Both the position numbers and the translations under genes were made by a program. 64,000 nt of DNA, taken from NCBI RefSeq assembly GCF_000014005.1, contig NC_008009.1, forward strand, positions 1,798,001 to 1,862,000. The letters run 5' to 3'. The DNA comes from Candidatus Koribacter versatilis Ellin345. Its GTDB lineage: Bacteria > Acidobacteriota > Terriglobia > Terriglobales > Acidobacteriaceae. Positions 6,800-37,237 of this stretch are shown in pieces. The first letter of the stretch is position 1; each line of letters opens with the position of its first letter. A model generated the notes under the pieces. It was given only the letters and a program-made list of their open reading frames with translations, ran no database searches and had not been told where the DNA came from.

Positions 6800-9421
6800 T
6801 CAGCCCCTGCTGGTCGCCATCGTCGCCGCCAACGCCTTCTGCAGCTTCTCCTGCAGCGTCTTCTCCAACTTCTTGCCCTGATGCGTCAGATAGAACACGT
6901 CGATCGCCGTGCGCCCTTCGGTATCAATCAACGCCGCCTCGATATTGCACGTGAGCTTTGCCAATTCCGCGCTGATCTCATACAGCAGCCCCGGACGGTC
7001 CGGCGTCACCACCTCCAGCAACGTACTGCGGCTCGAACACTGATCATCGAACAGTAGTTTTGTCTCGATGGTCGCCTTCGGCCCCTTCACATCGTTGCGA
7101 CGCCGCTTCATCAGCGTCTCAAGCGACACCTTGCCGCTCAACACATCGGTGATGCTCTCCTGGAAGCGCGTCCACTCTTCCATGTTGAGCTCGAGAGTGC
7201 GGAACTGGTCAGCGAAGTAGAACGTGTCGAGCACCATCCCCGCGCCGTTGGCGAACGCATCGGCCTTCACGATGTTCATGCCCCATGCCGCCAGCGCACC
7301 TGCAATGTTGCAGAAGATCATCGGCCGGTCTTGCATCGCCACGGTCAGCAGGAAGAGCTGCCCCTGCCGGTTTAACTTCAACTGCACGCCGCTGCCCGAG
7401 ACCTTCGACGCCATCTCGATGTGCGCTGCGATCTCCTCCGCGGAATGAATGCTCATATAGCGCTGCGGAATTCCTTCCAGGAAGCGCTTGAGCTTTTTGC
7501 CCAACTGCGGCGCGAGCAGCCGGATGCGTCCCAATTGCTCATCTTCCGCATTGGCGTGGTAGCGCTCTTCATCGACCGAGTGCGACAGGAAGTTCGCCGT
7601 CGCAATGTAAAGCTGCCACAGGTTATCGGCCTTCCACGGCGTCAGCGCGTGCCGGTTCACCGCCTTGATGTCGGCATAGGTCAGCAGGATGAGCATCTTC
7701 AGGCGGTCCTGCGTGCCCACTCGGTTCGCCAGATCGCGGATGTTGGCAATGTCGAAAATATCGCGCCGCATCGCCAGCGATGCTTCAAGATGCGCCGCGA
7801 TCAGGAAGCACACCGTCTCCGCATCGCGATGCGTAATGCCGACCGTCTCCAGCCGCTTGCGCGCCAGTTCAACTCCCGTCTTCACGTGGTCATCGCTCTC
7901 GATGCCTTTGCCGATGTCGTGCAGCAGAATCGCCAGCACCAGTAGCTCGGGTTGCTCAATCTCATCCAGCAACGCGAGGAATCGGCTCTCGACCTCCGAC
8001 TGCGAATCGCTGAGCTGATGCAGCGCGTCAATCGCGATAAACGTGTGTTCATCCACCGTGTACTGGTGATACAGATCGCGCAGCACCAGCGACTCGATAT
8101 TCGCGAACTCCGGGAAGATGACGTTCAGCAATCCCACGCGCTGCATCGCACGCAAAGCCGCGCCCGCATGCGGACGAATCAGGATCGACCCCAGGTGCCT
8201 CCACCAGTCGATCACCGGTAGCTCATTTTTCGCTACTTGCGGCAGGTTCTCTTCGATCTTGTGTTCCACGCTCGCCGACAGCGGTACCCCATGCTCCGCC
8301 ACAAACTCGAAGCTCCGCATCATTACGTCGGGATCGTCAATCGCACCCGGCTGCTGCAACCGCACGCGGCCATTCACCACCGTGAAGTCCGCATTCGATG
8401 CCCGCGATCGCCAGTTCTGGATTTGTTTGAACAGCGTCGGCTTCTGCGACGCTGCGTTCTCGATCATCGTTCCCGCGAAGCGGTCGAGCACCCGCGCATG
8501 GCGGAAGTAGCTACGCATCCACTCCGCGGCGGTGGCTGCCTGGTCGCCCATGCCGAGCTTTGCCGCTTCCTCCTGCGCGTCCCACGAGAGCTTGTTATCG
8601 TCGCGTCCCGACCGGTAGTGCAGGAAGCAGCGCACCGAATCCAGGAACTCCACCGCGCGCTCCGTCTGTCCACGCAGCGATTTCGGCAGGTACTCCATCG
8701 GATCGATCCACGTACCCTCCTTAATCAATCCGTGAATCTGCGCCGCCCAGCACCCCAGGTGGTAATCGCGCAGCCCGCCGACGCAATCCTTCAGGTCTGG
8801 CTCAAGGTGGAAGATCGTATTCGAGTACTTCGCCTTGCGTTCGTTGTTGACCTCGATCAACTGTTCCAGGATCGTGTGCGACTCGCTCACTATCGTCGCC
8901 GGCAAAATCTTGCCGCGCAGAAACTCGGGCAGTTGCGCTTCACCCGCCACGTAGCGCGCGTCCATCAGGGCAATCGTGCCTTCGGCGTTGTTCGAATCAA
9001 ACTTGCTGCAATCGTCAACCGTCTTCGTTGTCGGACTCAACCGCATGCGCATGTCCCACAACTCCTGGCACAGTGCGCGGATCTTCGCCTTCAAGTCAGG
9101 AGTTTCCGGCTTCTCGCAGAGAAACAGCAGGTCAATATCGGAGTGGGGAAACAGGGAACTGCGCCCGTAGCCACCGATCGCGACCACACCTACGCCCTTC
9201 GGATACGCGCTCGCAAGATGCGTATTCCACAACCGCTGGATGACGTCATCCACCAGCGCAGTCCGCGCTTCGAGCACGGCTGGCCCGTGGCGCGTTTCCT
9301 CGAACTTCTGCTGGATGCGCGCCGACTCGCGGCGATACAACTCTTTTACAGGCAGGTCTTCGTACGTTCCGCCAGGGCCGATCGTCGGATCGTTAGAGGG
9401 CACCGGGACCACGTTCGTCAT
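6800..9421 (-). CDS. glnD: [Protein-PII] uridylyltransferase / uridylyl-removing enzyme
   Basis: GlnD senses glutamine and adds or removes UMP on PII. All four expected parts are present in 873 residues. The nucleotidyltransferase site is at 83-98 (GGYGRSSLFPHSDIDL, with D95 and D97). The HD domain has H501-D502 in ILLHDIGKG. Two C-terminal ACT domains lie at about 690-770 and 800-873. The start overlaps the end of glnB by 29 bp, which implies translational coupling. It is the last gene of amtB-glnB-glnD, so sensor, signal protein and transporter are made together. The stop lies against a hairpin-repeat block. Confidence 0.95.
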   Translation of the reverse strand: MTNVVPVPSNDPTIGPGGTYEDLPVKELYRRESARIQQKFEETRHGPAVLEARTALVDDVIQRLWNTHLASAYPKGVGVVAIGGYGRSSLFPHSDIDLLFLCEKPETPDLKAKIRALCQELWDMRMRLSPTTKTVDDCSKFDSNNAEGTIALMDARYVAGEAQLPEFLRGKILPATIVSESHTILEQLIEVNNERKAKYSNTIFHLEPDLKDCVGGLRDYHLGCWAAQIHGLIKEGTWIDPMEYLPKSLRGQTERAVEFLDSVRCFLHYRSGRDDNKLSWDAQEEAAKLGMGDQAATAAEWMRSYFRHARVLDRFAGTMIENAASQKPTLFKQIQNWRSRASNADFTVVNGRVRLQQPGAIDDPDVMMRSFEFVAEHGVPLSASVEHKIEENLPQVAKNELPVIDWWRHLGSILIRPHAGAALRAMQRVGLLNVIFPEFANIESLVLRDLYHQYTVDEHTFIAIDALHQLSDSQSEVESRFLALLDEIEQPELLVLAILLHDIGKGIESDDHVKTGVELARKRLETVGITHRDAETVCFLIAAHLEASLAMRRDIFDIANIRDLANRVGTQDRLKMLILLTYADIKAVNRHALTPWKADNLWQLYIATANFLSHSVDEERYHANAEDEQLGRIRLLAPQLGKKLKRFLEGIPQRYMSIHSAEEIAAHIEMASKVSGSGVQLKLNRQGQLFLLTVAMQDRPMIFCNIAGALAAWGMNIVKADAFANGAGMVLDTFYFADQFRTLELNMEEWTRFQESITDVLSGKVSLETLMKRRRNDVKGPKATIETKLLFDDQCSSRSTLLEVVTPDRPGLLYEISAELAKLTCNIEAALIDTEGRTAIDVFYLTHQGKKLEKTLQEKLQKALAATMATSRG

Positions 9422-18723: not shown

Positions 18724-20472
18724 TTAGCTAGGCATCTTGAACTGGAGCACGATCTGTACGCTCGATTCGACTGGACGCCCGTTCACCGTGGAAGGAGCAT
18801 ATTTCCATTGGCGAACTGCGTTGAGTGCGGAGTCGCGCAACATCGGCGGCCCGTTCAGTACTTTCGCGTCCTTCACGTGTCCGTCAGATCCGATGGTCGC
18901 GCTCAGCGTTACCGCGCCTTCAATGCGGTACTGCTTGGCGGACTGCGGATAGTTCGGGTTCACGCGCTGGACCAGGCGGCTTGGAACGATTACGGCATTG
19001 GCCGGCGCAGGAGCGGAAAGCTTCGGCGCTGAGCTGGTTACCGGAACGTCAAGATTCGGACCCGCACCGGCTGCGCCTGCCAGGTTCAGCGAGGGCGCGG
19101 AGACATCTGCAACCTGCTGCGGCTTGTTGCTCGCCGAAGGTGCGGAGCCTACAACCAGCGGAGCGGCTGCCGGCTTCGCCTGCTGCTGCTCTTCCGGCTT
19201 GCTGGCGGTCGTGTTGTTGTTGTTCTTGCCCTGGTCCTGCGGCTTGGTGTTGTTTGCGGCCGCGGGGTTTGCTCCAGTCGTCACCGTTCCAGTTACGTTG
19301 GAGGCGGGCGTTGTGTTCGCGGTGTTCTCAGGCGCCGGTTGCGTCGTAGTAGTGGGCGGAGCAGGCGCTGGGCTCGACTTCTTGCCCATCATGAAGTATC
19401 CGCCGATCGCGATTACCAGCACTGCGGCTGCGACGCCGCCGAAAATCATGCCCTTGTTTCCGCCGCCTTCGCCTTCCTCGGTTTTCGCTTCGTAGCTGAA
19501 CGAGGGGGCAGCGATGACCGGCTCGGCCTTCGGCTGCGGTTTGGGCTCAGGTTTCGGTTCCGGCTTCGGTTGCGCCTTGGGTTCCGGCTTCGGCGCGGGC
19601 TTCTCGATCACCGGAGCCTCTTCCTCCTGCTTCGGAGGCGCTACCGGTTTCCATTTGCCCTGCTGTTTCTGTTCCTGCCGCTTCGGTGGCTGCGGCGGTG
19701 GCTTCGGCGGCTCAGGAGCGCGCTCGACTGCAGGCGCTGGAGCGGCGGCAACTGGCATCGGAGCAGGCGCCGGCGGGGCCAGCTTCGGAGCTTCAATCTT
19801 CGGTGCCGGCGGAGGCGGCGGTGTTGGGCGCGGAGCTTCAATTTTCGGCGGAGCCGGTGGTGGCGGCGGTGCCGGACGCGGTGCTTCCACCTTGGGCGCC
19901 GGAGGCGGCGGAGGTGGCGGTGCAACCTGCGGCCTGGCGACCGGGGCCGGTGCGGCTGCTGCCGCGGCGGAGACCATCGGTGCGCCGGTGCTAATTCCCT
20001 GGACTTCCAGGAAGCGCTGGATCGAAGCGCCCAAGCCATCGGCCATCGTCTTGAGGACGGCCATATGAGTGTCGCTGAAGGCACTGGCAGCGCTCGAGAA
20101 CGTCGCAATCACGCCACTGACGCGCATTCCGCTCAGTACGGGCACTACGGCCATCGACTTGATGCGGAGGGCGCGGCTGATTTCGGGGTCGACGCGCGAA
20201 TCATTTTCGGTGTCGTCGCAACGCACCGCTTTCATTCCGGTAACGGCCAGGCCAGTGAACGTTCCGTCGGTGCTTAGAACCATTCCAACGTCGGGGGCGT
20301 TGTTGCCGCGGCTGCCGCGGCAAACCATGTCCTCCCCCTCGCGCAGCGCGATCGCTGCGCCGGCCGCTCCCGTAAACGTCTGAACCCGTTGAACGAGTTT
20401 TGTGACGTCTTCGAGTATTGAGGGCGGATACTGGATCTCGAATTCCGAGTCCTTTGTTACAGAATCAGGCAT
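18724..20472 (-). CDS. GAF-domain / TonB C-terminal fusion protein
   Basis: The 582-residue protein has an unusual order. A GAF-like domain (about 15-155) carries the segments VQTFTGAAGAAIAL and SMAVVPVLSGMRVSGVIATF. A Pro/Ala/Lys-rich stretch follows (about 170-320). A single membrane span (341-362, FGGVAAAVLVIAIGGYFMM) comes next, then an Asn/Thr/Ala-rich linker. A TonB C-terminal domain closes the protein (from about 505, with VNPNYPQSAKQYRIEGAV and ALNAVRQWKYAPSTVNG). Canonical TonB has its span at the N-terminus. Here a presumed cytoplasmic sensor precedes it, suggesting TonB-type contact tied to an internal signal; that role is inference. No exbB or exbD is nearby. Confidence 0.85.
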   Translation of the reverse strand: MPDSVTKDSEFEIQYPPSILEDVTKLVQRVQTFTGAAGAAIALREGEDMVCRGSRGNNAPDVGMVLSTDGTFTGLAVTGMKAVRCDDTENDSRVDPEISRALRIKSMAVVPVLSGMRVSGVIATFSSAASAFSDTHMAVLKTMADGLGASIQRFLEVQGISTGAPMVSAAAAAAPAPVARPQVAPPPPPPPAPKVEAPRPAPPPPPAPPKIEAPRPTPPPPPAPKIEAPKLAPPAPAPMPVAAAPAPAVERAPEPPKPPPQPPKRQEQKQQGKWKPVAPPKQEEEAPVIEKPAPKPEPKAQPKPEPKPEPKPQPKAEPVIAAPSFSYEAKTEEGEGGGNKGMIFGGVAAAVLVIAIGGYFMMGKKSSPAPAPPTTTTQPAPENTANTTPASNVTGTVTTGANPAAANNTKPQDQGKNNNNTTASKPEEQQQAKPAAAPLVVGSAPSASNKPQQVADVSAPSLNLAGAAGAGPNLDVPVTSSAPKLSAPAPANAVIVPSRLVQRVNPNYPQSAKQYRIEGAVTLSATIGSDGHVKDAKVLNGPPMLRDSALNAVRQWKYAPSTVNGRPVESSVQIVLQFKMPS

Positions 20473-20644: not shown

Positions 20645-20664
20645 TCGCCCCTCACGAGGTGGCC

Positions 20665-20931
20665 ATGAAGACCCTTCTAGAGAAGATCCACGACAAAGAA
20701 CTGCAGATCGAGGCGCTACGCGCCCAGATCGCCAAACTGGAGCGCGATATCGAGACGCTGCAAAGCGCTGCGCGCATCCTGAATGATGACGACGAAGGTA
20801 ACCCTTTGGCTGACCTCGTCGCCCCCGAACTCTCCGCCAAGGCAGCCGCTGTTGCCTCCGGAGATAACCACCCCCAGCAGAAGAACAACAACTTCGACCA
20901 GGGTGGAAACAAGAAGAAGGCGTGGCCATAA
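20665..20931 (+). CDS. Small coiled-coil hypothetical protein (88 aa)
   Basis: I do not recognise the family. The ATG at 20665 is preferred over an in-frame GTG six bases earlier because GAGGTGG stands just before it. Residues 1-40 form a strong amphipathic helix with Leu/Ile heptads (LLEKIHDKELQIEALRAQIA), so a coiled-coil dimer is likely. The rest is Ala-, Asn- and Gln-rich and probably disordered, ending in a Lys-rich tail. There is no signal peptide or membrane span. It has its own promoter and is divergent from the GAF-TonB gene. The leucine-heptad start recalls small scaffold or regulator proteins, but no function can be assigned. Confidence 0.75.
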   Translation: MKTLLEKIHDKELQIEALRAQIAKLERDIETLQSAARILNDDDEGNPLADLVAPELSAKAAAVASGDNHPQQKNNNFDQGGNKKKAWP

Positions 20932-21382: not shown

Positions 21383-23278
21383 GTGCGTAAACAACCCGCT
21401 CTCGTTGTCCTCGCAATTGCATTCTCTCTCTGCAGCGCAGTCTCCCCGGTTTCGGCACAGTCTGTGGCCGCCGGCAAATGCCCTCACGTCGCTGAGGGAT
21501 CAACCGTCGTAAATCCGCCAGAAGTTTTTTCCAAAAACGGCCTGCTCGAAGCGAACCTGACCTTCGAACGCTCCGACGTCGCAGGTGAGGCCCGGTTCTG
21601 CTATCTCACCGACCGCGGTGCGCTCGCCCCCACGCTGCACGTTCTCCCCGGCGACAAACTAGTACTCCATCTCACCAACAAAGTTCCTCCATCTTCGGCG
21701 CCGGCAGTGCATATCCATGGCAAGGACAAGATGCAGGGCTGTGGTGGCGGCGAGATGACCGGGTCTTCCACCAACATTCACTTCCACGGCACAACCTTGC
21801 CGCCTGTCTGCCACCAGGACGATGTGCTCAACACTCTCGTCCAGCCGAATGAAGATTTCGATTACGTCATTCAGATTCCGAAGAACCAGCCGCCGGGACT
21901 GTATTGGTATCACCCGCATCCGCATGGGTTCACCGAGTTGCAGGTGCAGGGTGGCGCCAGCGCTGCGCTCGTCGTGGACGGCATTGAGCAGGTCAATCCC
22001 GAACTCGCAGCATTGCCGCAGCGCTTGCTCGTCGTTCGCGACCAAAAGCTCAATGCAACCCAGGCAGCGGTAAAGAACGATCCCAACAAGCCGTCGTGGG
22101 ACCTCTCGCTCAACTATGTCGAAGTGAAATATCCGGGCTACGCGCCTTCGGTCATCGAGACGCGTCCGAAGCAGAAAGAATTGTGGCGCGTGTTGAACGC
22201 CGCCGCCGATGCGCTGCTCGATCTACAAGTTCTCGTCAACGACGTTCCGCAGCCGTTGCAGGTGTACGCGGTGGATGGCGTGCCTCTGCCCAAAGGTTCA
22301 AACCTAACCCAGCAGACGCTCTCTCTCGATCCCGGCGCGCGTGTCGAAGTCGTCTTCACTGCTCCTGATGCAGGCCAAACCGCGATGCTGGTCACCCGCA
22401 AGCACGACACCGGTCCAGCTGGCGACAGCGATCCCGCGCGTCCCATCGCGAAGATTGTTGCCAGTGATAGCGCCACGCTGCCATCGGTGGGCAAGACACT
22501 CTCGGCCCGTATAGCGTCGCCGCTCGCATTCGACGGGCTGTTATCGGAAAAGCCAGTCGCGCTGCGCAAACTCGTCTTCAGCGAAGAGCTCAGCAAAGAC
22601 GACGCGAACACCAGCTTCTTCATTTCAACCGATCCCGGAATGCACGCCCGCTTCCGCTTTACAGACGAGCCTAAATTCAAAGTGCGGCAGGGAACCGTGG
22701 AAGAATGGCACATCCGGAACACGGCGCGCGAAGACCACACCTTCCACATCCATCAGGTCCACTTCAAAGTCATCAAGATCAACGATGAGCCAGTCAGCGA
22801 TCCTGCAGTTCGCGACACCGTCACTCTGCCGTACTGGAAGGGAACTGGGCCTTTCCCCTCCGTCACGCTACGCATGGATTTCCGCGACCCGACGATCATC
22901 GGGATCTTCCCGTTCCATTGCCACATTCTTGCGCATGAAGATTCTGGCATGATGGCCAAACTGGAAGTGCTACCTCCCGCCGTGCCGACGCGCATAACGT
23001 TCGATATCAATCCGAAAGAGCCTGTAGCGGGCACTCCGGTGACTTTTACGGCGCAGCTCGCCGGTCTGAAGAAGGACGCGGCGCCCGCGAGTTTCGTCGA
23101 GTTTGTGATCGACGGCGGCGGACATCCGGTGTTCACGATTGAAGACGGCGTCGCGACCTACACCACAACCTTTCGCAAGCCCGGAGAGCACAAGCTCTCG
23201 GTGCGATACAACGGCGACGACGTCTACAGCGATTCCTCCTCGGACGCGGTTCAACTGGCAGTACAGTCAAAGCAATAG
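21383..23278 (+). CDS. Exported multicopper oxidase with C-terminal Ig-like domain
   Basis: This is a 631-residue cupredoxin-type oxidase. A signal peptide ends near VSAQ after the GTG start. All copper-binding motifs are visible: NIHFHGTTLPPVCHQDD, YWYHPHPHGF, HTFHIHQVHF, and FPFHCHILAHEDSGMM with the type-1 Cys-His-Met set. Three cupredoxin domains span about 40-530. The last ~95 residues form a bacterial Ig-like domain (PTRITFDINPKEPVAGTPV...), an extra not present in simple laccases. It acts outside the cytoplasm. Substrates could be phenolics, metal ions or organic reductants; sequence does not decide. A shared terminator separates it from the convergent gene downstream. Confidence 0.92.
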   Translation: MRKQPALVVLAIAFSLCSAVSPVSAQSVAAGKCPHVAEGSTVVNPPEVFSKNGLLEANLTFERSDVAGEARFCYLTDRGALAPTLHVLPGDKLVLHLTNKVPPSSAPAVHIHGKDKMQGCGGGEMTGSSTNIHFHGTTLPPVCHQDDVLNTLVQPNEDFDYVIQIPKNQPPGLYWYHPHPHGFTELQVQGGASAALVVDGIEQVNPELAALPQRLLVVRDQKLNATQAAVKNDPNKPSWDLSLNYVEVKYPGYAPSVIETRPKQKELWRVLNAAADALLDLQVLVNDVPQPLQVYAVDGVPLPKGSNLTQQTLSLDPGARVEVVFTAPDAGQTAMLVTRKHDTGPAGDSDPARPIAKIVASDSATLPSVGKTLSARIASPLAFDGLLSEKPVALRKLVFSEELSKDDANTSFFISTDPGMHARFRFTDEPKFKVRQGTVEEWHIRNTAREDHTFHIHQVHFKVIKINDEPVSDPAVRDTVTLPYWKGTGPFPSVTLRMDFRDPTIIGIFPFHCHILAHEDSGMMAKLEVLPPAVPTRITFDINPKEPVAGTPVTFTAQLAGLKKDAAPASFVEFVIDGGGHPVFTIEDGVATYTTTFRKPGEHKLSVRYNGDDVYSDSSSDAVQLAVQSKQ

Positions 23279-23347: not shown

Positions 23348-25696
23348 TTAGTGAGCCGGCGGGATGTGCTGTTCGCGCTTCACCGGTTGGCTCTTCCTGG
23401 TGCCCGTGATGGTCGGAATCGTCCAATCGAAGTGAGTGATCGTTCCGCCAGCAGAGGTCGGATCGGTTGCTGGTTGGTGACCGGTAGCATCCTGCGTCGC
23501 TGCGAGGAAGCCCGTGAGGTCAACCTGCAACACGCGAAGATTCGAGCCGTCCAGCAAGTAGCCATACGCCTTGGAATTCCCGATGTTAAAGATCGCACCC
23601 ACCGCGTGCGGATCATAAGCCTCGCTGTAGCCAATGCCACCCGTAGCGAGGTTGAACATCGAGTAGTTCGATGCGCCCGCCCAGGTGCCGCCCGACGCGA
23701 CCGACGCCGGATCCTGGATCTGGAAGACTCCCATGTCTGTGGAGAAGCCCGCCATCAGCAGTCCGTAGTGGGTCGTGCTGTCCACTGCCGAGCCGGAGTA
23801 GGTGTGGTATGGGATTGTTCCTCCCATCGAAGTGTCGAGTACTACCAGGCCTCCCGCCGCCGGAGAGAACGTTCCCGGTGCACCGGATGCTCCCGGCGTG
23901 GTAGTGATACCCGCCAGGTTCAGGAAGGCGACGTCCGAAGTATCTTCGAACGTTAGTACGCCAACCTGCAGCGCGTTATCCACCGAATCGCCGTCAATCG
24001 TATACGAGCTGCGAACCGCAGCCAGCATCGCCCAGTTGGTGTCGTCGAGCAAGTAGCTCGCCTTGCCGGCCAGGTCAACCACCTGCACGCCGTAATAGTT
24101 ACCGACGAAGAGTTGATTGTGGCTGATGTCGGCGCCCATGTTTTCCGCGACCTGCGTTGGATCCGGATACTTCGCTCCACCCGGTTGTGGGAACGCGTCG
24201 TAGCTGTTGCCGGCGTCGAAGTCCGGAGCGGTCAACGAAATATCCAGCAACTTGTACCCGTCCACCGTCGACATCCAGACCCCGTGACGTCCAGGATCAG
24301 GTGTGCCGCCGAGGACAAAGCCACTGCCGCCGCTAACGTCCGCTGGGCTGGTGCTGACGAACGTCGGCGCGAAGTGCGCATCAATGATCGCGCTCTCGTC
24401 CGCGGACTTCGTCGGATCACCGTTTACCATCAGGTCGGCGTTCAAGAGCGCCATCTGCTGGCTACCGTATGAGAACGCTACAACCTGACCGTGATCGGCA
24501 CGGCCGATGATCGGAATGACGCCACCGACATCGTTACCGAGGACCCCGTTTACGCCCGGCCATACTTTGATTGCCGGCGATGCATTCGTCGGGTCAGTGA
24601 TGTCAATTACCACCACACCCGCGCTGCGTGCGGCCACGAACAAGTACTGTTTGCCCTGGAACGCCAGCGTCGCGATTGCACCAGAGCTGCCGGCCGAAAG
24701 GCCAAGCGCCTTCGGCGTCAGCGGGCTCTGCGAAACGCCGCCGGAGATCGAGTTCACCGCACTGTCGAGATCGCCACCGGTGACCGACAACACCGTGCTC
24801 GTGCTCACGTACTCGTTCAAGCAGAGCAGGAAGTCCGTAGTCAACGCCGTGGACGAAAGCTTCAGGGAGTTGGTTGGAGGATCGAGGAAGATGTCTGCGC
24901 CGGCGTTCTTGCCGTCGAAGATCAGGTCGGTCGCGTCCGCGAAGATCGCCGTGAAAAACGCACCCGGGTTCGTCGGATAGGCCTTGTTGGCGCAAACTTC
25001 TACCGCGCCGCTGAGCAAGCCGATCTTGAAGGCGTCAATATCGGTTGCCGAAGTAACGGTTGGCGTGCCGCCAAAGCCGGTGCCACCCGTGCTCGGAATA
25101 CCGCCGTAGAAGCCACCGAGCGAAGTCGTCGCGCAGCCCATGCCGGCCGTAACGCCGCCGGAGCACGAAGTGCCCGCAAGCTTAGTCACGTTTCCGCCGC
25201 GTTTCGCCAACTGGCCACCAGGCGTCTTGCCGCCCGCGAAACCCTGCGCCATGGTGTCGAGCATGGACGTCGCAACCGTCACATTCACCGGATTCGGGAT
25301 CTTCGTGGAATCGGTAATGAGCGCGGTCAAGGTCGCTGAGTTGGTGATGGACGTCTTGCCGTCCACGTCGCTCAGGAATGAGCCGCCGCTCACCGAGACG
25401 CGGATCGGCCCACTCGGCACCTTGCTTGTGGTGACACTGAACTTGCCGCTGGCATCCGTCGTCGCCGTACCGATCGAGCTGCCGTTGGCGCCCGAGGAGT
25501 CTGTCACTTCATAAACGGTTACGGTAGCGCCGTTGAGCGGGCCTTTGGTCGCGACACCATTGATGGTTGTGCCTGTGGTTCCGCCGCCCCCACCGCCACC
25601 GCCGTTATCAACCGGGCCGCTGGGGCCATTCAGGCCACAGCCGAACTCCAGCGCCATCGCCGCTACCACTGCACAAATACTTAGCCACTTCTTCAT
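23348..25696 (-). CDS. Large exported protein with carboxypeptidase-like N-terminus and propeller-type repeats
   Basis: The start at 25696 (MKKWLSICAVVAAMALEFGCG) has a perfect GGAGGAAGC site before it; a longer in-frame start 44 codons upstream is rejected. The signal sequence ends at a Cys, but EFGC is not a standard lipobox, so lipidation is uncertain. A Gly-rich linker follows, then a domain like carboxypeptidase-regulatory/Ig folds (GVATKGPLNGATVTVYEVTD). The larger C-terminal part has LVIVD-like propeller repeats (FVAARSAGVVVIDITDPTN, GVQVVDLAGKASYLL). The protein is 782 residues. Biochemical role is unknown; the fold suggests surface binding rather than catalysis. It is divergent from a Crp-type regulator. 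Confidence 0.75.
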   Translation of the reverse strand: MKKWLSICAVVAAMALEFGCGLNGPSGPVDNGGGGGGGGTTGTTINGVATKGPLNGATVTVYEVTDSSGANGSSIGTATTDASGKFSVTTSKVPSGPIRVSVSGGSFLSDVDGKTSITNSATLTALITDSTKIPNPVNVTVATSMLDTMAQGFAGGKTPGGQLAKRGGNVTKLAGTSCSGGVTAGMGCATTSLGGFYGGIPSTGGTGFGGTPTVTSATDIDAFKIGLLSGAVEVCANKAYPTNPGAFFTAIFADATDLIFDGKNAGADIFLDPPTNSLKLSSTALTTDFLLCLNEYVSTSTVLSVTGGDLDSAVNSISGGVSQSPLTPKALGLSAGSSGAIATLAFQGKQYLFVAARSAGVVVIDITDPTNASPAIKVWPGVNGVLGNDVGGVIPIIGRADHGQVVAFSYGSQQMALLNADLMVNGDPTKSADESAIIDAHFAPTFVSTSPADVSGGSGFVLGGTPDPGRHGVWMSTVDGYKLLDISLTAPDFDAGNSYDAFPQPGGAKYPDPTQVAENMGADISHNQLFVGNYYGVQVVDLAGKASYLLDDTNWAMLAAVRSSYTIDGDSVDNALQVGVLTFEDTSDVAFLNLAGITTTPGASGAPGTFSPAAGGLVVLDTSMGGTIPYHTYSGSAVDSTTHYGLLMAGFSTDMGVFQIQDPASVASGGTWAGASNYSMFNLATGGIGYSEAYDPHAVGAIFNIGNSKAYGYLLDGSNLRVLQVDLTGFLAATQDATGHQPATDPTSAGGTITHFDWTIPTITGTRKSQPVKREQHIPPAH

Positions 25697-25801
25697 GCTT
25701 CCTCCGAAAGTCGTTGCCTGCTGGACACGTGGATCGTGACCCAGAAATGGACAGTTCTGGCCCGGGGGGAAATCCTGTAGGGGATGGGAGAAAAAGTTAT
25801 C

Positions 25802-25821
25802 GATCACAGTCGTTTGTGATC
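25802..25821. promoter_or_regulatory. Palindromic candidate operator GATCACA-N6-TGTGATC
   Basis: This is a perfect 7-bp inverted repeat with a 6-bp spacer in the divergent gap beside the Crp-type gene. The half-sites are Crp-like (TCACA/TGTGA) but in inside-out order. Confidence 0.55.
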
Positions 25822-26056
25822 TATGCACTTGTCAAACACCAGGTTTCTTCGGTGGCTCTCCGGCCATCCTCGATCAGAGAAAACCTGGCGTAATGGGTCC
25901 AAAAGTCGCGAAAATCCGCGTCATTGGCTGCATTTCTTATCAGCGCGCATTAACGGTCAACGCGCCTTATTGGGGGGACTTGACCTTGGGGATGCGTAAA
26001 TGTACACCGATTTGGGTTAAAAATCACCATAAGAACGTAAATTTCGCACAAGCCCT

Positions 26057-29377: not shown

Positions 29378-32300
29378 ATGAAGAAGTCTTACCTGGCGAT
29401 TCTGCTCGCCACGGTATTGGTTTTGTTGTGCGCGTTTCCCGCCTTAGCACAATCCAATACAGCAAAGTTGACCGGAACAGTCGCAGACGCGCAGGGTGCA
29501 GTCGTCCCCGGCGTCAGCATTACTGTCACCAGCTCGAAAGGTCGTGCAACTACGGTCCAGAGCAATGCTTCCGGCTTCTACACGATTGCTGCGTTGGATC
29601 CCGATACCTATAACGTGGATGTGAAGCAGTCCGGATTCAAACCCATCACGCAAAAGATCACGCTTCAGACTGCCCAGCAGGCGGAACTGAACTTCACCAT
29701 GCAATTAGGTTCGACCTCAGAGACCGTTGAGGTTACCAGCGATGTTCCGCTCGTCGACGCCATCAGCTCGAACGTGAGCGCCGTCATCGTCGGCCGCCAG
29801 ATTACCGAGCTCCCGCTCAACGGCAACAACTTCACGCAGCTTGCAACCCTCGTCCCGGGCGTCACTCGCGGTATGCCGGCCAATCAACAGTCTGGAGAGG
29901 GCAACCAGGCCGAAACATTCCGCTATGCGGGCAACGGCGGTTCCGCCATCTCCGTAAACGGTCTTCGTCAGCAGGCGAACAACTTCCTGCTCGATGGTTT
30001 CGACAACAACGAGAGCCTGGTGAACACGATTGTGTTCTTCCCGCCGACCGAGGCGATCCAGGAATTCCGCGTTGACACCAGCGTTGCGCCGGCAGAATTC
30101 GGCCGCGCCGGCGGTGGCATCGTCAACTCGTCTATCAAGTCAGGCACCAACAGCTGGCACGGCTCTGCATTCGACTATCTTCGCAACAGCGTCCTGGATG
30201 CGAAGACCTACGCATTGGGTCCGAATGACCCGAAGCCCCCCTTCCGCCGCAACCAGTTTGGCGGCGCAATTGGCGGCGCGATCATCAAGAACAAGCTTTT
30301 CATTTTCGGTGATTATCAGGGCCTTCGGCAGGCGCAGCCGGCCAGTCTCGACTTCGCGACTGTCCCGACCGACATGATGCGCAGTGGCGATTTCTCCGAA
30401 TTGTTGGGACTGCAACGCGTGGACGGAACGGCGGTAGCGCCCATCCAAATTCGCCATGCGGGCGCCAACAGTTCCGCCGATTACGTGAACTACGTTGGGA
30501 ATATCATCCCCAGCGCTGACTTCGTTGGCGCCGGCCAAGCTTATTTGAACGCCTATCCGGAGCCGAATGTCTCCGCCACGAACACACACTGCGGTCTGGT
30601 CTCGACCCTCGATGGCCTCTGCCTGCAGCAGAACTACATGGTCCAGCGGCAGCAGATCCAGAACTTCGATGATTTCGACATCCGTGCCGACTATGTCCTT
30701 CGCACCCAGGACACGATGTTCCTGCGCTACAGCTATGGGCACGAAACCGACGTCACGACGTCGCGCCTGCCTGCACTGCCCGCCGGATTTGGTTCCGGCG
30801 ATCAGTTCAGTATGCCTCGCTCCTGGGCATTCGGTGAAACCCACACTTTCTCCCCAAACATCCTGAACGAGTTCCGCTTCGGATGGATTCGCGCGAACCT
30901 CGGCTATCTGCCGCCGTTCGACGACCAGGCCTTGTCGGCAAATCTCGGAATTCCGAACGCCAACACTTCGTCTCTGCTTGGAGGCGGCGCCCTTATCGGT
31001 GGTTACAACGGTCAGCTGGAATACACCGGGGACTACGGTCCGTACCAGGTTCCGGAAAACACTTATCAACTCGCCGACAATGTCAGCTGGATCAAGGGTC
31101 ATCACAGCTTCAAGTTCGGCGCGAACCTAATGTGGCGACAAGTCAACCTCTTCCGTCCCAAGGCGGGCAAGGGTTACTTCTTCATCTCCGGTAACGGTGG
31201 CGATGCCTTCTCGACCGGATACGAAGTCTCCGACGTTCTCGCCGGTTTCATGAACAACTACCAGGTTGGTCCGGCACTTGGATTCGCTGGGACCCGCAGC
31301 TGGGAAAACGGCATTTTCGCTCAGGACGATTGGCGCATTACCAATCGGCTGACGTTGAACCTCGGCTTCCGCTGGGATGTGCTCACATGGCCCACCGAAG
31401 TCCACAACCAGATGTCGAACTTCGACCTGAACCCCGGCAGCGGTACCTATGGACAGGTGGTTCTGCCTGGAACCCACGGCTACAACGATTCGTTCGTTCC
31501 GACCGATTGGCATAACTTCGCTCCTCGCGTCGGTTTTGCCTACAACCTGTTTGGCAACGGTAAGTCCGTGGTGCGCGGCGGTTATGGAATGTTCTATTTC
31601 GTAGACCGTGGCGGCATCGACAACCAGATGGCGCAGAACGCTCCGTTTGCGGGCGTCTCGCAATACAACTACACCAACGGCTATCGCTTCACGCTCGGCG
31701 GCCAGGCTCCACTGAACTCAGTGGATCCGACGCAAGGCGGCGCGGTCGGCATGCCGGACAAGAACGATTTCAACATCGACTTCACCAATCCGGCGAACCT
31801 CTCGATGGTGTCGTACCTTAACCGCAACGTACCGGCCAGTGTGCAGGAGTGGAACCTCCAGTTCGAACAGGAACTTGGCGTCAACACCTCCTTCATGCTC
31901 GCTTACGTGGGCAACAAGGGCACGCATCTTACCTCGTACCACGACTTCAACCGCCAGTTCTACAACCAGGCCAATGGCGACAAGAACTTCCCAGCCATGG
32001 GCAGCCTCACCGTTCACGATACTAGCGGCAACTCAAACTACAACTCGTTGCAGGCGCAGTTGACTCGCCGCATGACCAAGGGCCTGCAGTTCAACGCTTC
32101 GTACACCTGGGCCCACGCAATCGACGATTCCCAGGGCGCATTCGACGCCAACAATGGCGTTGTCGATTACTTCAACCTGGCGCATGAGCGCGCGAACTCG
32201 TTGCTCGACTTCCGTCAACGCTTCGTGTTCAACGCTCTGTACGAGCTGCCTTTCGGCCACGGACGGCAGTGGGGCAATAGCTGGAACGGCGTCACCAACG

Positions 32301-32749
32301 CGGTCCTTGGTGGATGGCAGTTCAACCCGATCCTGACGCTCAGCAGCGGATCACCGTTCGACCTCGGTGGAATCGGTAACCCGCAGACGCGTCCTGACCT
32401 GGTCGGCCAGCTGCATCAGTTGAACAGCGTGAACGGCATGTGGTTCGACACCAGCGCGTTCGCGGTTCCCGCCTCGAACGGCACCGGCGTCTTCCTCGCG
32501 CCTGGCACCGCTCCTCGCAACCCGTTCACCGGACCGGGAACCGAGATCTTCGACTTCTCTGTCCAGAAGACGTTCGCGATCACTGAACGCGTCCGGACCG
32601 AGTTCACGTCGCAGTTCTTCAACGCCTTCAACACCCCGCAATTCGCACAGCCGGATGGCAACTTCTACGATGGCAACTTCGGTCGTGTGACCAACACTCG
32701 CTTGAACAGCGAACGCCAGGTCCAGTTCGGACTTCGCGTTCTCTTCTAA
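29378..32749 (+). CDS. TonB-dependent receptor with N-terminal carboxypeptidase-regulatory-like domain
   Basis: This is a 1123-residue outer-membrane receptor of the type greatly expanded in Acidobacteria. A signal peptide (to FPALAQ) follows an excellent GAGGAGG site. A carboxypeptidase-regulatory-like domain is at about 27-110 (LTGTVADAQGAVVPGVSITV). The plug is at about 125-250 (ELPLNGNNFTQLATLVPGV, GFDNNESLVNTI), then a long beta-barrel ends in QFGLRVLF with the expected C-terminal Phe. It should import a large substrate using TonB energy. The divergent sugar carrier and the secreted GH13 enzyme downstream suggest a glycan ligand, but this is inferred from context only. Confidence 0.93.
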   Translation: MKKSYLAILLATVLVLLCAFPALAQSNTAKLTGTVADAQGAVVPGVSITVTSSKGRATTVQSNASGFYTIAALDPDTYNVDVKQSGFKPITQKITLQTAQQAELNFTMQLGSTSETVEVTSDVPLVDAISSNVSAVIVGRQITELPLNGNNFTQLATLVPGVTRGMPANQQSGEGNQAETFRYAGNGGSAISVNGLRQQANNFLLDGFDNNESLVNTIVFFPPTEAIQEFRVDTSVAPAEFGRAGGGIVNSSIKSGTNSWHGSAFDYLRNSVLDAKTYALGPNDPKPPFRRNQFGGAIGGAIIKNKLFIFGDYQGLRQAQPASLDFATVPTDMMRSGDFSELLGLQRVDGTAVAPIQIRHAGANSSADYVNYVGNIIPSADFVGAGQAYLNAYPEPNVSATNTHCGLVSTLDGLCLQQNYMVQRQQIQNFDDFDIRADYVLRTQDTMFLRYSYGHETDVTTSRLPALPAGFGSGDQFSMPRSWAFGETHTFSPNILNEFRFGWIRANLGYLPPFDDQALSANLGIPNANTSSLLGGGALIGGYNGQLEYTGDYGPYQVPENTYQLADNVSWIKGHHSFKFGANLMWRQVNLFRPKAGKGYFFISGNGGDAFSTGYEVSDVLAGFMNNYQVGPALGFAGTRSWENGIFAQDDWRITNRLTLNLGFRWDVLTWPTEVHNQMSNFDLNPGSGTYGQVVLPGTHGYNDSFVPTDWHNFAPRVGFAYNLFGNGKSVVRGGYGMFYFVDRGGIDNQMAQNAPFAGVSQYNYTNGYRFTLGGQAPLNSVDPTQGGAVGMPDKNDFNIDFTNPANLSMVSYLNRNVPASVQEWNLQFEQELGVNTSFMLAYVGNKGTHLTSYHDFNRQFYNQANGDKNFPAMGSLTVHDTSGNSNYNSLQAQLTRRMTKGLQFNASYTWAHAIDDSQGAFDANNGVVDYFNLAHERANSLLDFRQRFVFNALYELPFGHGRQWGNSWNGVTNAVLGGWQFNPILTLSSGSPFDLGGIGNPQTRPDLVGQLHQLNSVNGMWFDTSAFAVPASNGTGVFLAPGTAPRNPFTGPGTEIFDFSVQKTFAITERVRTEFTSQFFNAFNTPQFAQPDGNFYDGNFGRVTNTRLNSERQVQFGLRVLF

Positions 32750-32764
32750 CCTGAAATGCAACTA

Positions 32765-32801
32765 CGGAGAGCAGGCACAACCTGCTCTCCGCTTTTCTTC
32801 T
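32765..32801 (+). terminator. Terminator after the TonB-dependent receptor gene
   Basis: A perfect 11-bp stem CGGAGAGCAGG / CCTGCTCTCCG with loop CACAA is followed by CTTTTCTTCT, 15 bp after the stop. Confidence 0.9.
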
Positions 32802-32983
32802 AGTCAGGAACAGGGGCGCGGTGAGAGACTAATTTGTCGTCACATCGTACCCAGAGGTAAAGCACACGCGAGCGGAAAAGACTCCAAAGAGAGTCGCAAT
32901 TTCCCGAGCGGTGCAGCAGTTTCGATACAGGCGTTCCGCCGTACCGGTTAACCCCAAGAAAATTTAGCCAGGGGCGTTGCCTG

Positions 32984-34816
32984 ATGTGTCGTCTCTCGCG
33001 TCTTGTCGCGTATTTGCTTTTTTCCTGCGCTCTGTTTGCGCAGGCCCCCAAAATTTCTAAAGTCGATCCACCCAACTGGTGGGCGAATTATCCGCACAGC
33101 CCGATGTTGCTGCTTACGGGCGAGAACCTTGCCAACGCGAAGGTCTCTGCCAATTATCCGCACTTGAAAATCACCAAGTCGGAAAGCAGCGCCGACGGGC
33201 GCTACGTCTTCGTTTATCTCGACGAGCAGAAAGATCTCAAGCCCGGCACCGCGCACTTCTCAGTGCAGACGGCGGGCGGAAACACGGCTCTTGATTTTGT
33301 TTTCGATAAGCGACCGAGCCTCGAAGGCCGCGCCCAGGGGCTGAACGCCAGTGACACGATTTACCTCATCATGCCCGACCGTTTTGCCGACGGCGATCCG
33401 TCGAACAACGATCCGCAGAATGCGAAAGGGCACTACGACCGCGCGAAGCAGATGGCGTATCACGGTGGCGATCTCAAGGGCGTCACCGATCACCTCGATT
33501 ACCTGCACGATCTAGGCGTGTCGACTGTCTGGCTCACCCCCTGGTGGAAGAACGACGGCAACTCCGCGGATTATCACGGCTATCACGTCACGGATTTCTA
33601 TGGCATCGAAGATCACTTCGGCAACATGAAGGACCTGCAGCAGATGGTTTCGGCCGCGCACGGCAAGGGCATGAAGGTCCTGATGGATTACGTGGTGAAC
33701 CACACCGGCCCGTTCCATCCGTGGGCGGAGCATCCGCCAACCCCAACGTGGCTGCACGGCACTCCGGCGAAGCATCCGCAGCCCAAGTACAACTTCTGGC
33801 CGCTTGTGGATCCGCATGGCACGCAAGCCGACCGAACGCCGGTCCTCGAAGGCTGGTTCGTGGACCGTCTTCCTGACCTCAACGTGGACGACCCGAAGTT
33901 GACGGAATACCTCATCGACAACGGGCTCTGGTGGATGGAAACCGCCAGCCTCGACGGCTATCGCCTCGATACGTTCCCTTATTCCTCGCGCGAGTTCTGG
34001 AGCAAGTGGCACAAGGCGCTGTTCGAGGTCTATCCCAGGACGTTCACCATCGGCGAAGTGTCGGATGGCGATCCCGCGGTGGTTTCTTTCTTCCAGGGCG
34101 GCCGCAAAGAATACGACGGGATTGATTCCGGCGTGACCACGGTCTTCGATTTCCCGACCATGTACGCGATCCGCGACGTGCTGATCCGGCAGCAACCTGC
34201 TTCGAAGCTGCAAGAGGTCCTGGAGCACGACGCGCTGTATCCCAACCCGGCGGTGCTGGTGCCGTTCATCGGCAACCACGACAAACCGCGCTTCATGGGC
34301 GAGAAAGGCGCGACCGTGCCGGAGTTGAATGCCGCCGCCAGCCTGCTGCTCACGTTGCGCGGCATCCCGCAACTCTACGCAGGCGATGAAATCGCCATGC
34401 CGGGCGGCGAGGATCCCGATAATCGCCGCGACTTCCCAGGCGGTTTCGCGGGTGATCCACAAAACGCTTTCACTGCGTCGGGACGTACCCCAGAACAGCA
34501 GGAAGCCTTCGCGCATTTGCAAAAGCTGCTTCAGCTTCGCAAGCAGCACAAAGCGCTGCAGAGCGGCGAACAAACGGACCTCTTCTCGTCCGAGAAAGGG
34601 TTCGCCTATTACCGCGTCAGTGGCGACGACCGTGTGCTTATCGTGCTGAACTCGGGCAGCGACGCGCAAACGATCGCCATCCCGAAGGTGCAGACGCCCC
34701 TCGCGAATGCAACTTCCTTTACCGCGCTCGACAGCGCTGCCACGGCACAAACGAGTGGTGACAGCGTCACCGCGAACGTACCCGGCATGACGGTCGCGAT
34801 TTTCCAGGTCAAGTAG
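32984..34816 (+). CDS. Exported GH13 alpha-glucan hydrolase (cyclomaltodextrinase/neopullulanase-like)
   Basis: This is a 610-residue secreted enzyme. The signal peptide MCRLSRLVAYLLFSCALFAQ is followed by an N-terminal Ig-like domain of the cyclomaltodextrinase type (to ~115, with PPNWWANYPHSPMLLLTGENL). The GH13 barrel begins at IYLIMPDRFADGD. The triad is intact: D329 in DGYRLDTFPY, E358 in TIGEVSDGD and D433 in FIGNHDKPRF; DYVVNHTG is region I. It probably trims starch-like polymers or cyclic dextrins in the periplasm, as in the SusA arrangement. It follows the receptor gene but has its own upstream gap of 234 bp, with a terminator between them. Confidence 0.92.
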   Translation: MCRLSRLVAYLLFSCALFAQAPKISKVDPPNWWANYPHSPMLLLTGENLANAKVSANYPHLKITKSESSADGRYVFVYLDEQKDLKPGTAHFSVQTAGGNTALDFVFDKRPSLEGRAQGLNASDTIYLIMPDRFADGDPSNNDPQNAKGHYDRAKQMAYHGGDLKGVTDHLDYLHDLGVSTVWLTPWWKNDGNSADYHGYHVTDFYGIEDHFGNMKDLQQMVSAAHGKGMKVLMDYVVNHTGPFHPWAEHPPTPTWLHGTPAKHPQPKYNFWPLVDPHGTQADRTPVLEGWFVDRLPDLNVDDPKLTEYLIDNGLWWMETASLDGYRLDTFPYSSREFWSKWHKALFEVYPRTFTIGEVSDGDPAVVSFFQGGRKEYDGIDSGVTTVFDFPTMYAIRDVLIRQQPASKLQEVLEHDALYPNPAVLVPFIGNHDKPRFMGEKGATVPELNAAASLLLTLRGIPQLYAGDEIAMPGGEDPDNRRDFPGGFAGDPQNAFTASGRTPEQQEAFAHLQKLLQLRKQHKALQSGEQTDLFSSEKGFAYYRVSGDDRVLIVLNSGSDAQTIAIPKVQTPLANATSFTALDSAATAQTSGDSVTANVPGMTVAIFQVK

Positions 34817-34829
34817 CCGCCCCGTTCAC

Positions 34830-34857
34830 TTCGGGAGCTCCGACCAGAGCTCCCGAA
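34830..34857 (+). terminator. Strong hairpin after the secreted GH13 gene
   Basis: A perfect 11-bp stem TTCGGGAGCTC / GAGCTCCCGAA with a 6-base loop lies 13 bp after the stop. It lacks a clear T-tract, so termination there is probable but not certain. Confidence 0.6.
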
Positions 34858-34951
34858 ACCCTCTGTCCGGCGGTACAACGCCTTTGGTGAACGATTTTCA
34901 CTGCAAAATTCCGCCGAGTGACAGTACCATCGTGTGCCAAGGAGATCGTCA

Positions 34952-37237
34952 ATGAAGGCTGCAACTTTGCGCAGGTGGAGTGTGCTTGTACTCGCGTCGG
35001 CGTCGCTGGTGAGCGGCGTCCTCGCGCAGGAGCCGTCTTCAGAGGCGACAACTTCGTCTACCGCGGTCACGGTCAGCGTCAACGTCTTGGCCAATCGCCA
35101 CAGCATCAGCCAGTCCATTTACGGCGTGAACTTTCCGCCGGATGCAACCTACATCGCGAACTCCGGTGCGTCGTTCGTGCGCTGGGGCGGCAATGCATCG
35201 TCGCGTTACAACTGGAAGAATTTCAACACCAGTTCCGCAGCCGACTGGTACTTCCAGAACCGTGGCATGGGCGACACCGCGCTTTACCAGGATTCGAAGA
35301 CCTTCGTGCAGACCATCGCGAACGCGGGCGCTGCGCCGGTCATGACCATCCCGATGCTCGGCTGGGTGTCGAAGGACGCGACCAGCTATAGCTTCTCCGT
35401 AAAAACGTTCGGCGCACAGTGCGGGATCAACCCTTACAACAGCGACGATGGCAACGGCGTGAAGTCCGACTGCGCGACCAACCTCACCGGCGTGAACCCG
35501 ACGTGGACGAGCGTCAAGTTCCTCGACTCACCCAAGACGGGCGATCCGGCGGGCAGCATTTATCTTAGCGAATGGGCGACCGCGTTGAGCCCGCTGTTTG
35601 GCAACTTCGGGCACTTCTATGAGATGGACAATGAGATGGACATTTGGGGCGGCACCCACCGCGACATCCATCCCAACCCGGCGGGCTACAACGAAATGCG
35701 CGACGTGTTCCTCCAGCATGCGCGCGCGTTGAAGACCTTCGACACCAAGGCGATCCGCATGGGTCCGGTGAGCTGCTGCTGGTGGTTCTATTTCAACGGC
35801 GCTAACAACAACGACAAGGGCAACCACGCCGGGATCGATTTCATGCCGTGGTGGCTGAATGAAATCTACTGGGCGGATCTGAACGGTACGACCGGGCGCT
35901 CGCTCGATGTCTTCGACTTCCACGCCTATCCGGACACGCCGGATTTTTCCGGCTACACCGCGGCACAGATGCGCGCGCTTGAGTTGCGCATTACGCGTGA
36001 CTTCTGGGACCCAACCTACGTGAGTGAAAGCAGTACTATCAATCAGCCGTGGGTCACGAGTTTGCAGCCGAACCGGACCATCCCGTTCCGCATGCCGCGC
36101 ATTCGCGCCATCGTGAACAGCATCTATCCGGGAACGCAGGTGAGCGTGACGGAATGGAGCGTGGCGTTCCAGAACCAGAACATCAATTACAACGGCGAGA
36201 ATGAATTCGCCACTGCGCTCGCGGATGCCGACGTCTTCGGGACCTTCGGACGCGAACGCATTTACGCGGCATCGCGCTGGACGGCCGCCGATCCCGCGAC
36301 ACCGGCGTTCCAGGCGTTGAAGATCTATCGCAACTACGACGGCGCGCACCACGCCTTCGGCACAACGTCGGTCAGCGCAACCAACAACGGCAACTCGAGC
36401 TTGTTTAGCAGCTATGGCGCGATTGGCTTGAACAACACGCAAGTTACGCTGATGCTTATCAACAAAGACCCGTCGAATGCGGCGACGACGACGCTGAACA
36501 TCGCGGGTTTCACGCCGACATCGCGCAAGGTGTATCAGCTCACGACTGCACACCCGACGAGCATCACGCTGGTTTCGTCGGGCGCGTGGTCGTCGAGCAT
36601 CACGGTGCCGGCGTATTCACTCACGCTCATTCTCGCCAACGGCACCATGACCGCGCCGTCAGCGGAGTGGGACCTGAATCCCGACGCAACGATGGTTCCG
36701 GCGAATGGCACCGCGATTCTGTCGCCCAACATCACCAGCGGCACGGGCTCAGTGACGATGACCGCGGTCACGAGCGACGCGGGTATCACCGTGACGAACA
36801 CCACGCCCACGATCACCCCGACCACAAAGGGCCGGCTGACAGTGAAGGCCGGAGCGACTTCCGGGATCTACAAATTCACCGTGACCGGCAAGGACAACAC
36901 CAACATCACGCAGACGAAGTCGGGCTGGATCCTCGTCGGCAATCCGTCGGCGACGCTGGCGAAGACCGGCGATCTGCAGACCGCGCCGCACGGAACGCAG
37001 ATCACGTTGACGGCGACGCTGGGGCCGGGATCTTCCGGCGGTACGGCGGGCGGTGCGACGGTGCGGTTTACCGCGTCGGCAGGAACGCTGACAGCACGCA
37101 ATGTGACCACCGATTCCACCGGAAAGGCGACGGTGAAACTGACGTTGCCGGCAACGGCGGGAACGGTGACTGTAACTGCGGAAGGCCCGTTTGGGTTGGG
37201 ACATCCGGTGGCGACGTTTACCGAAACGGCCAATTGA
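34952..37237 (+). CDS. Exported GH44 beta-glucanase with C-terminal Ig-like domains
   Basis: The start at 34952 has AAGGAGA before it and gives 761 residues with a signal peptide ending at SGVLAQ; an upstream GTG (34934) is rejected. Residues ~40-560 match GH44: SIYGVNFPPDA, SFVRWGGNASSRYNWK, acid/base E228 in MDNEMDIWGGTHRDIHP and nucleophile E401 in VTEWSVAFQ. GH44 enzymes cleave beta-1,4-glucan, xyloglucan or mixed glucans. The last ~200 residues form two Ig-like modules, the last of the invasin type (TPHG-like start, GKATVKLTLPATAGTVTVTA). It adds plant-polysaccharide attack to this glycan region. Confidence 0.92.
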   Translation: MKAATLRRWSVLVLASASLVSGVLAQEPSSEATTSSTAVTVSVNVLANRHSISQSIYGVNFPPDATYIANSGASFVRWGGNASSRYNWKNFNTSSAADWYFQNRGMGDTALYQDSKTFVQTIANAGAAPVMTIPMLGWVSKDATSYSFSVKTFGAQCGINPYNSDDGNGVKSDCATNLTGVNPTWTSVKFLDSPKTGDPAGSIYLSEWATALSPLFGNFGHFYEMDNEMDIWGGTHRDIHPNPAGYNEMRDVFLQHARALKTFDTKAIRMGPVSCCWWFYFNGANNNDKGNHAGIDFMPWWLNEIYWADLNGTTGRSLDVFDFHAYPDTPDFSGYTAAQMRALELRITRDFWDPTYVSESSTINQPWVTSLQPNRTIPFRMPRIRAIVNSIYPGTQVSVTEWSVAFQNQNINYNGENEFATALADADVFGTFGRERIYAASRWTAADPATPAFQALKIYRNYDGAHHAFGTTSVSATNNGNSSLFSSYGAIGLNNTQVTLMLINKDPSNAATTTLNIAGFTPTSRKVYQLTTAHPTSITLVSSGAWSSSITVPAYSLTLILANGTMTAPSAEWDLNPDATMVPANGTAILSPNITSGTGSVTMTAVTSDAGITVTNTTPTITPTTKGRLTVKAGATSGIYKFTVTGKDNTNITQTKSGWILVGNPSATLAKTGDLQTAPHGTQITLTATLGPGSSGGTAGGATVRFTASAGTLTARNVTTDSTGKATVKLTLPATAGTVTVTAEGPFGLGHPVATFTETAN

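Follow-up and report, generated by a model that had tools for sequence, protein, structure and literature searches.

A GAF domain joined to a TonB C-terminal domain through one membrane span in Candidatus Koribacter versatilis and its relatives: a possible route for inside-out envelope signalling

Introduction

What might a sensor domain inside the cell do when it is attached, through a single membrane span, to a TonB C-terminal domain (TonB_C)? The question is raised by a gene in a 64,000-nucleotide stretch of the Candidatus Koribacter versatilis Ellin345 genome, here called the window. The genome is one contig of 5,650,368 bases, and the gene, at 18724..20472 on the minus strand, encodes a 582-residue protein (ATG start; defined by its ORF and Pfam matches) with the order GAF domain, membrane span, TonB_C. 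The known role of TonB is energy coupling, and a cytoplasmic domain is generally absent from TonB proteins, as stated in passages of a 2021 paper (PMC8262864); a class of such proteins with input domains and without the motif that contacts the motor departs from that picture. If such proteins work from the inside outwards, bacteria would have direct cytoplasmic control, exerted after synthesis, over outer-membrane transport, adhesion or surface assembly, and inside-out control of the outer membrane would become testable on one single-span protein. The comparisons described below suggest that this protein and its cousins let intracellular signals act on the outer envelope.

Results

Domains, linkers and topology of the window protein

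A sequence-only reading of the window had taken the N-terminus to be GAF-like and the C-terminus to be TonB_C, and profile searches bear out both assignments. The GAF_2 model covers residues 24–151 (20020..20403, minus) with E 6.3e-12 and 46.3 bits against a cut-off of 28.6, PF01590 matches with E 2.1e-8, and PF13185, PF01590 and PF13492 all exceed their Pfam cut-offs. PF03544 covers residues 505–579 (18736..18960, minus) with E 4.9e-20 and 72.2 bits against a cut-off of 24.6, the NCBIfam tonB_Cterm model matches with E 1.8e-13, and the solved structures nearest by sequence are themselves TonB C-domains (2k9k, E 2.3e-10; 2gsk, E 4.9e-7). The only Pfam models above cut-off in the protein are those for GAF and TonB_C. 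Among solved structures the GAF domain had no close relative by sequence (best E 0.0059), and a structure model of it built from two sequences reached a pLDDT of 39.8. Two cysteines in this domain are widely kept among the 103 aligned relatives, namely Cys85, within the stretch 'RCDDTENDxRVD' (101 of 103), and Cys51 (85 of 103).

The succession of a proline-rich stretch, one span and TonB_C, described in the same reading, also holds. Residues 160–340 (19453..19995, minus), probably cytoplasmic, are 34% proline, and residues 363–504 (18961..19386, minus), probably periplasmic, are 15% proline and rich in Thr, Asn, Ser and Ala, so that proline-containing linkers flank the span on both sides. The span itself, at about residues 342–361 (19390..19449, minus; assigned from hydropathy), is apolar and is the protein's one hydrophobic segment: the top 19-residue window, at 342–343, has a mean hydropathy of 2.19, a value that 6 in 1000 shuffled versions of the protein attain, and the runner-up beyond the span (1.59) falls within the GAF domain. 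Immediately before it, the juxtamembrane residues 322–341 (19450..19509, minus) align to a '(A/S)FGTFDSVAxEDKK'-like stretch in relatives from two other genera.

Windows in residues 1–60 peak at 0.77, and therefore no signal peptide is apparent. Lysine and arginine are balanced within 15 residues before and after the span (2/2), which makes the positive-inside signal weak and not decisive. From the absence of an apparent signal peptide, the presence of PilZ in relatives and the replacement of GAF by a receiver-like domain in others (both described below), we infer a cytoplasmic position for the GAF domain and first linker and a periplasmic one for TonB_C. Compared with a canonical TonB that works with ExbBD, the protein shares the TonB C-domain and a proline-containing linker of ~140 residues between span and C-domain. 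It differs in adding GAF and a 180-residue proline-rich region before the span, and in lacking both Ser-x3-His and adjoining exbBD genes. A TonB trait is a span at the N-terminus, preceded by a minimal cytoplasmic part or none, whereas here the span follows the GAF domain and linker.

The fusion recurs in ten genera of one family

Searches for the GAF part of the window protein found it in 14 of 247 genomes of the phylum at E <= 1e-8. A 15-row GAF profile matched, at E <= 1e-20, 157 genomes out of 398 in the same GTDB family, with matches per genome reaching at least 10, and a search over 347 genomes of the phylum at E <= 1e-22 returned 16 genomes, 7 of them from outside the family. No TonB_C was seen in the GAF ORFs of these seven genomes, although one of the ORFs (L011) exceeds the sequence examined.

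For a census, 105 distinct GAF ORFs were taken from loci chosen by score rather than at random, some of them cut at locus ends, and their domains were called with home-built profiles. TonB_C lies behind a span in 23 of the 105, comprising 19 GAF-span-TonB_C and 4 PilZ-GAF-span-TonB_C proteins, which come from ten genera of the same GTDB family (g1, g5, g6, g142, g172, g183, g184, g197, g200 and g206). The domain order singled out in the sequence-only reading is thus found elsewhere in the Acidobacteriota, and because 23 distinct ORFs share it, chance and sequencing or frame artefacts are ruled out. The other 82 comprise 9 ORFs with AMIN (7 of them also with amidase), 8 with Sel1, 17 whose span is at the extreme end, 12 with a span but no assigned domain and 36 lacking a span.

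Relatives in genera g142 and g184 are 46–52% identical to the window protein in the GAF domain and keep the domain order and the juxtamembrane stretch. The one close relative found in the contig search was the sister-species copy (L034), with 85% identity across the first 165 columns and a contig that ends just before TonB_C. When the whole protein was used as a query against plasmids, its TonB_C part alone was matched, in 6 records.

In a tree of GAF domains (103 rows, few columns) the window protein groups with 14 other TonB_C rows (SH-aLRT 93), and two further groups of GAF-TonB proteins make three altogether. Multiple origins of the fusion are not claimed, because a single clade of all GAF-TonB proteins is compatible with the data (not rejected, AU p 0.173). 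A degenerate or neutral fusion without specific function is hardly credible: the linkers do vary freely in length and sequence, and one species of g184 retains the GAF part alone, but the order is maintained in ten genera, and both GAF and TonB_C exceed Pfam cut-offs in all ten GAF-TonB proteins scanned (the window protein and nine others).

The spans lack the residues that contact ExbB

In the span of E. coli TonB, Ser16 and His20 of the Ser-x3-His (SHLS) motif contact ExbB and the histidine is essential, according to passages of a study of that system (PMC12215075). Ser-x3-His occurs in none of the 23 GAF-TonB spans, nor does histidine in any of their span cores, and in 17 of the 23 the 19-residue core is free of H, Q, N, E, D, K and R. 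An alternative set of 23, with L034 replacing L160, gave identical counts.

Standalone TonBs served as a control. This genome has 22 other TonB_C ORFs, of which 10 were judged by eye to be membrane-anchored; six of the ten carry Ser-x3-His, and the core residue is Q in two of the other four, E in one and N in one. From four other genomes, 30 of 65 TonB_C matches were taken, representing 29 distinct ORFs, with anchoring again judged by eye. Seven apparently secreted or unanchored ORFs (among them L215, flagged for Ser-x3-His) and four GAF or receiver fusions were set aside; of the 18 anchored standalone TonBs, 9 carry Ser-x3-His, 7 have Q or E and 2 have neither. Three more long TonBs, examined by eye, also have Ser-x3-His. 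A stronger contrast than the missing Ser-x3-His is that most GAF-TonB spans contain no polar residue at all. The absence of the motif is itself suggestive of uncoupling and not proof, because L001, a TonB encoded with exbB and two exbD genes, has Gln in its span and lacks Ser-x3-His. No exbB or exbD lies beside the window gene, the nearest match in the genome being ~1.1 Mb away; the genome's two ExbB/ExbD sets are located at 159–160 kb and 723 kb. Linkage of exbB/exbD to tonB is common and not obligatory.

A separate observation concerns L005 (G000:C1; its TonB_C lies at 3726606). This standalone TonB carries ~90 extra residues ahead of a Ser-x3-His span, and its N-terminus looks anti-sigma-like by eye.

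Outer-membrane partners and energy coupling

The closest paralogue of the window TonB_C within its own genome is that of L001 (40 of 78 residues identical), a likeness that suggests outer-membrane partners in common. TonB_C need not mean TonB-box binding, since 12 of the 22 other TonB_C ORFs of this genome (for example L004, L037 and L038) seem, by eye, to encode secreted proteins, and some of these carry TonB_C twice; in this genome the domain may have other roles.

The sequence-only reading had named the receptor at 29378 as a candidate partner. This gene, 8.9 kb from the window gene, encodes an Oar-like barrel (PF25183 plus CarboxypepD_reg). It loses its special standing as one of 47 barrel candidates of that family in this genome (30, 27, 29 and 6 were counted in four others) and as a gene beside sugar-use genes, and its partnership is unsupported. 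The stretch 29378–37237 carries the barrel, then a cyclomaltodextrinase-type GH13 gene and a GH44 gene, and resembles a polysaccharide-use locus.

Adjacency to a barrel was seen in genus g184, whose GAF-TonB loci have MatE, HisG and other genes in common. In four of the seven loci of sufficient length, a barrel of one BLAST cluster adjoins the GAF-TonB gene, separated from it by no more than one small ORF; the cluster's member in L141 has PF25183 and CarboxypepD_reg by Pfam. The barrel is missing from the other three loci, where MatE is still present, and an eighth species has it next to a GAF-only gene. These absences, the GAF-only neighbour and the abundance of barrels reduce the adjacency to one weak event, and it is therefore weak support for a receptor partner.

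The earlier proposal of a true ExbBD-coupled transducer, in which GAF gates energy transfer to a TonB-dependent receptor, must be judged on these findings. It can draw on the g184 barrels, on the likeness of its TonB_C to that of the exbBD-linked L001, and on the fact that L001 too lacks Ser-x3-His. Weighing more heavily, the barrel pattern is inconsistent even within g184, and the span, in the window protein as in most of its relatives, is apolar and without the residues that contact ExbB in E. coli. Energy gating by the window protein is not favoured on this evidence, and we consider a coupled transducer improbable.

Exchanged inputs and alternative outputs

The part that precedes the span is exchanged among relatives. 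PilZ was identified by Pfam in L155 (the same gene as L102; E 2.2e-8), the one of the four PilZ-like ORFs that was scanned, and by a home-built profile in the other three. Three of the four have RxxxR near the start followed by DxSxxG, with DLCEGG in place of the latter in L160; we take these to be the PilZ motifs.

The TonB_C control search of four genomes also brought up two G084 proteins in which a span joins a receiver-like N-terminus to TonB_C; Response_reg matches them with E 3.4e-4 and 0.0099, both under the Pfam cut-off. Of 200 family genomes, 58 contain the receiver-like part of one of these proteins at E <= 1e-20; apart from the query itself, the 48 best places are 69–93% identical, and the genome of the window has no match at that threshold. 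TonB_C was seen in 29 of 34 receiver-like ORFs from 30 loci, some of these ORFs being cut by the locus end; two of the five without it extend past the available sequence. A tandem second receiver-like ORF occurs in 4 of the 30 loci, and Ser-x3-His was flagged in none of the 34 ORFs. Proteins of this design lie at L216:1011–2750 and L218:1298–3403 and in L221–L250.

Sister GAF proteins without TonB_C have other domains after the span: AMIN with Amidase_3 (L089:99–2822 and L105:2746–5055), AMIN alone (L027 and L030), or Sel1 repeats, the last also in PilZ-GAF-span-Sel1 proteins of the same GAF family (L031:718–2580 and L097:2281–4086). For the GAF-span-amidase proteins, inside-out control of peptidoglycan hydrolysis is possible. 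In two genomes (L184, at G084:C23:731500–751400, and L185) three genes lie within 20 kb: one for a GAF protein whose N-terminus is Cys-rich, one for a PilZ-GAF-Sel1 protein and one for a GAF-AMIN-amidase protein.

Among the 12 GAF- or receiver-TonB proteins scanned with Pfam, none has an output enzyme. With this result, and with input domains being the parts exchanged, information most likely flows outwards through the GAF-TonB proteins. The inside-out control proposed in the sequence-only reading is hence retained as the most economical account, because the cytoplasmic parts that replace one another (PilZ-GAF, GAF and receiver-like) are all of input type; its energy-gating component is dropped.

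The opposite direction would have TonB_C feel an occupied receptor and relay this through the span to GAF, which would control a cytoplasmic partner. A single span can signal either way, and two kinds of neighbour would suit such a sensor: upstream, both species of the genus have a pair of genes from a single BLAST cluster, one of which Pfam confirms as Crp-type, and in genus g142 a FecR-domain gene is nearby (L142:15632–16447, with a matching gene in L137). Nevertheless, an output domain is lacking, and PilZ, receiver-like and GAF domains are normally inputs, which makes outside-in sensing quite improbable.

Gene neighbourhoods and known envelope machines

The window neighbours with Pfam matches encode an amidase, a multicopper oxidase, an alpha-amylase, an M13 peptidase, AmtB, GlnD, Crp and an MFS protein; the neighbours at 23348–25828 had no Pfam match and that at 20659–20931 none above cut-off. 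Members of the Crp-type and MFS clusters lie upstream in the sister species too. No operon partner common to all lineages was found among 20 neighbourhoods and window positions 8001–33000. In the second group of GAF-TonB proteins, from three genera (L149, L150 and L152), the loci share genes for a GDP-mannose dehydratase/epimerase and a BcsQ-like ATPase (Pfam), two of the three share a UDP-glucose/GDP-mannose dehydrogenase, and two an AAA ATPase. These loci point to surface polysaccharide and favour a scaffold or assembly role, at least there.

The closest precedent is GltG (PglI) of Myxococcus xanthus. According to passages of the source (PMC3169522), a single span in GltG connects a cytosolic FHA domain to a periplasmic TonB_C, and a two-hybrid assay showed binding to the motor subunit AglR. 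The two proteins share a cytosolic signalling-type domain, a span, a proline-rich TonB-like stretch and a periplasmic TonB_C. They differ in that GltG has FHA in place of GAF and belongs to the Glt gliding machine, and no gliding cluster was seen around the window gene. GltJ (AgmX), described in passages of the same source as a potential membrane protein of that machine (PMC3169522), is an effector of the cytoplasmic GTPase MglA according to part of another (PMC12288465) and has a TonB-like C-terminus according to part of a third (PMC8262864). The GltG precedent belongs to a special motility machine, whereas the GAF, PilZ and receiver-like design spans at least 10 genera and several inputs. 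No GAF-, PilZ- or receiver-TonB fusion appeared among the matches listed for titles and abstract openings of the open-access literature, and 'GAF' and 'Acidobacteri' do not occur in the main text of a 2025 paper on TonB/TolA evolution (PMC12204202).

The main rival to a switched tether is an envelope scaffold of GltG/GltJ type, a cytoplasmic platform joined to a trans-envelope machine for motility, adhesion, polysaccharide export or cell wall rather than to nutrient receptors, with GAF docking or regulating it. GltG itself supplies the model, AMIN-amidase in sister GAF proteins points to the cell wall, and the second GAF-TonB group shares GDP-mannose dehydratase-type and BcsQ-like genes, not receptors. 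Against this, the window protein has no FHA match at E <= 1 in Pfam, its match to the AgmX/PglI C-terminal domain (NF033768) reaches 18.1 bits, under the NCBIfam cut-off of 40, and no glt/agl cluster lies at the window, where the Pfam-matched neighbours are metabolic, transport or regulatory. Such a scaffold we regard as unlikely for the window protein.

Discussion

The account that we prefer, with a little less than even confidence, is a conserved inside-out envelope signalling protein that acts as a signal-switched, unenergised TonB-like tether or competitor and not as an energy transducer. A cytoplasmic signal would alter the state, oligomerisation or placing of the GAF-TonB protein; candidate signals are c-di-GMP, plausible for the PilZ-bearing cousins, and phosphorylation for the receiver-like ones. 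TonB_C would then bind or release outer-membrane partners, probably TonB-box proteins shared with ExbBD-driven TonB, and, in a protein without the ExbB-contact motif, this would amount to a switched tether or a competitor.

LapD of Pseudomonas fluorescens combines GGDEF/EAL and HAMP with a two-span periplasmic domain, a set and layout not found in the window protein, which has GAF and TonB_C models and one span. LapD, a model of inside-out signalling, works alike in that an inner-membrane protein reads a cytoplasmic signal and has a periplasmic output, as set out in the abstract of a report on it (PMC3032545). It differs in having wholly other domains and in inhibiting a periplasmic protease in response to c-di-GMP.

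A wider form of the switched-tether account is possible, though we hold it to be doubtful. In one large acidobacterial family, TonB_C would be the output of a whole inside-out class, built from PilZ-GAF, GAF or receiver-like inputs, a linker and a mostly apolar span without the ExbB-contact motif. Through cytoplasmic second messengers or phosphorylation, such proteins would compete with energised TonB or park it and so change the set of outer-membrane receptors that can be reached, and the AMIN-amidase and Sel1 sisters would act likewise for the cell wall.

Redox genes were also observed near GAF-TonB genes, of types that differ by lineage (L149:7822–9006, L152:7127–8731, L141:11300–13039 and window 21383–23278). 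They are cytochrome-c-peroxidase-like (CCP_MauG), di-haem oxidoreductase (DHOR) and MsrPQ-like genes, with a multicopper oxidase at the window.
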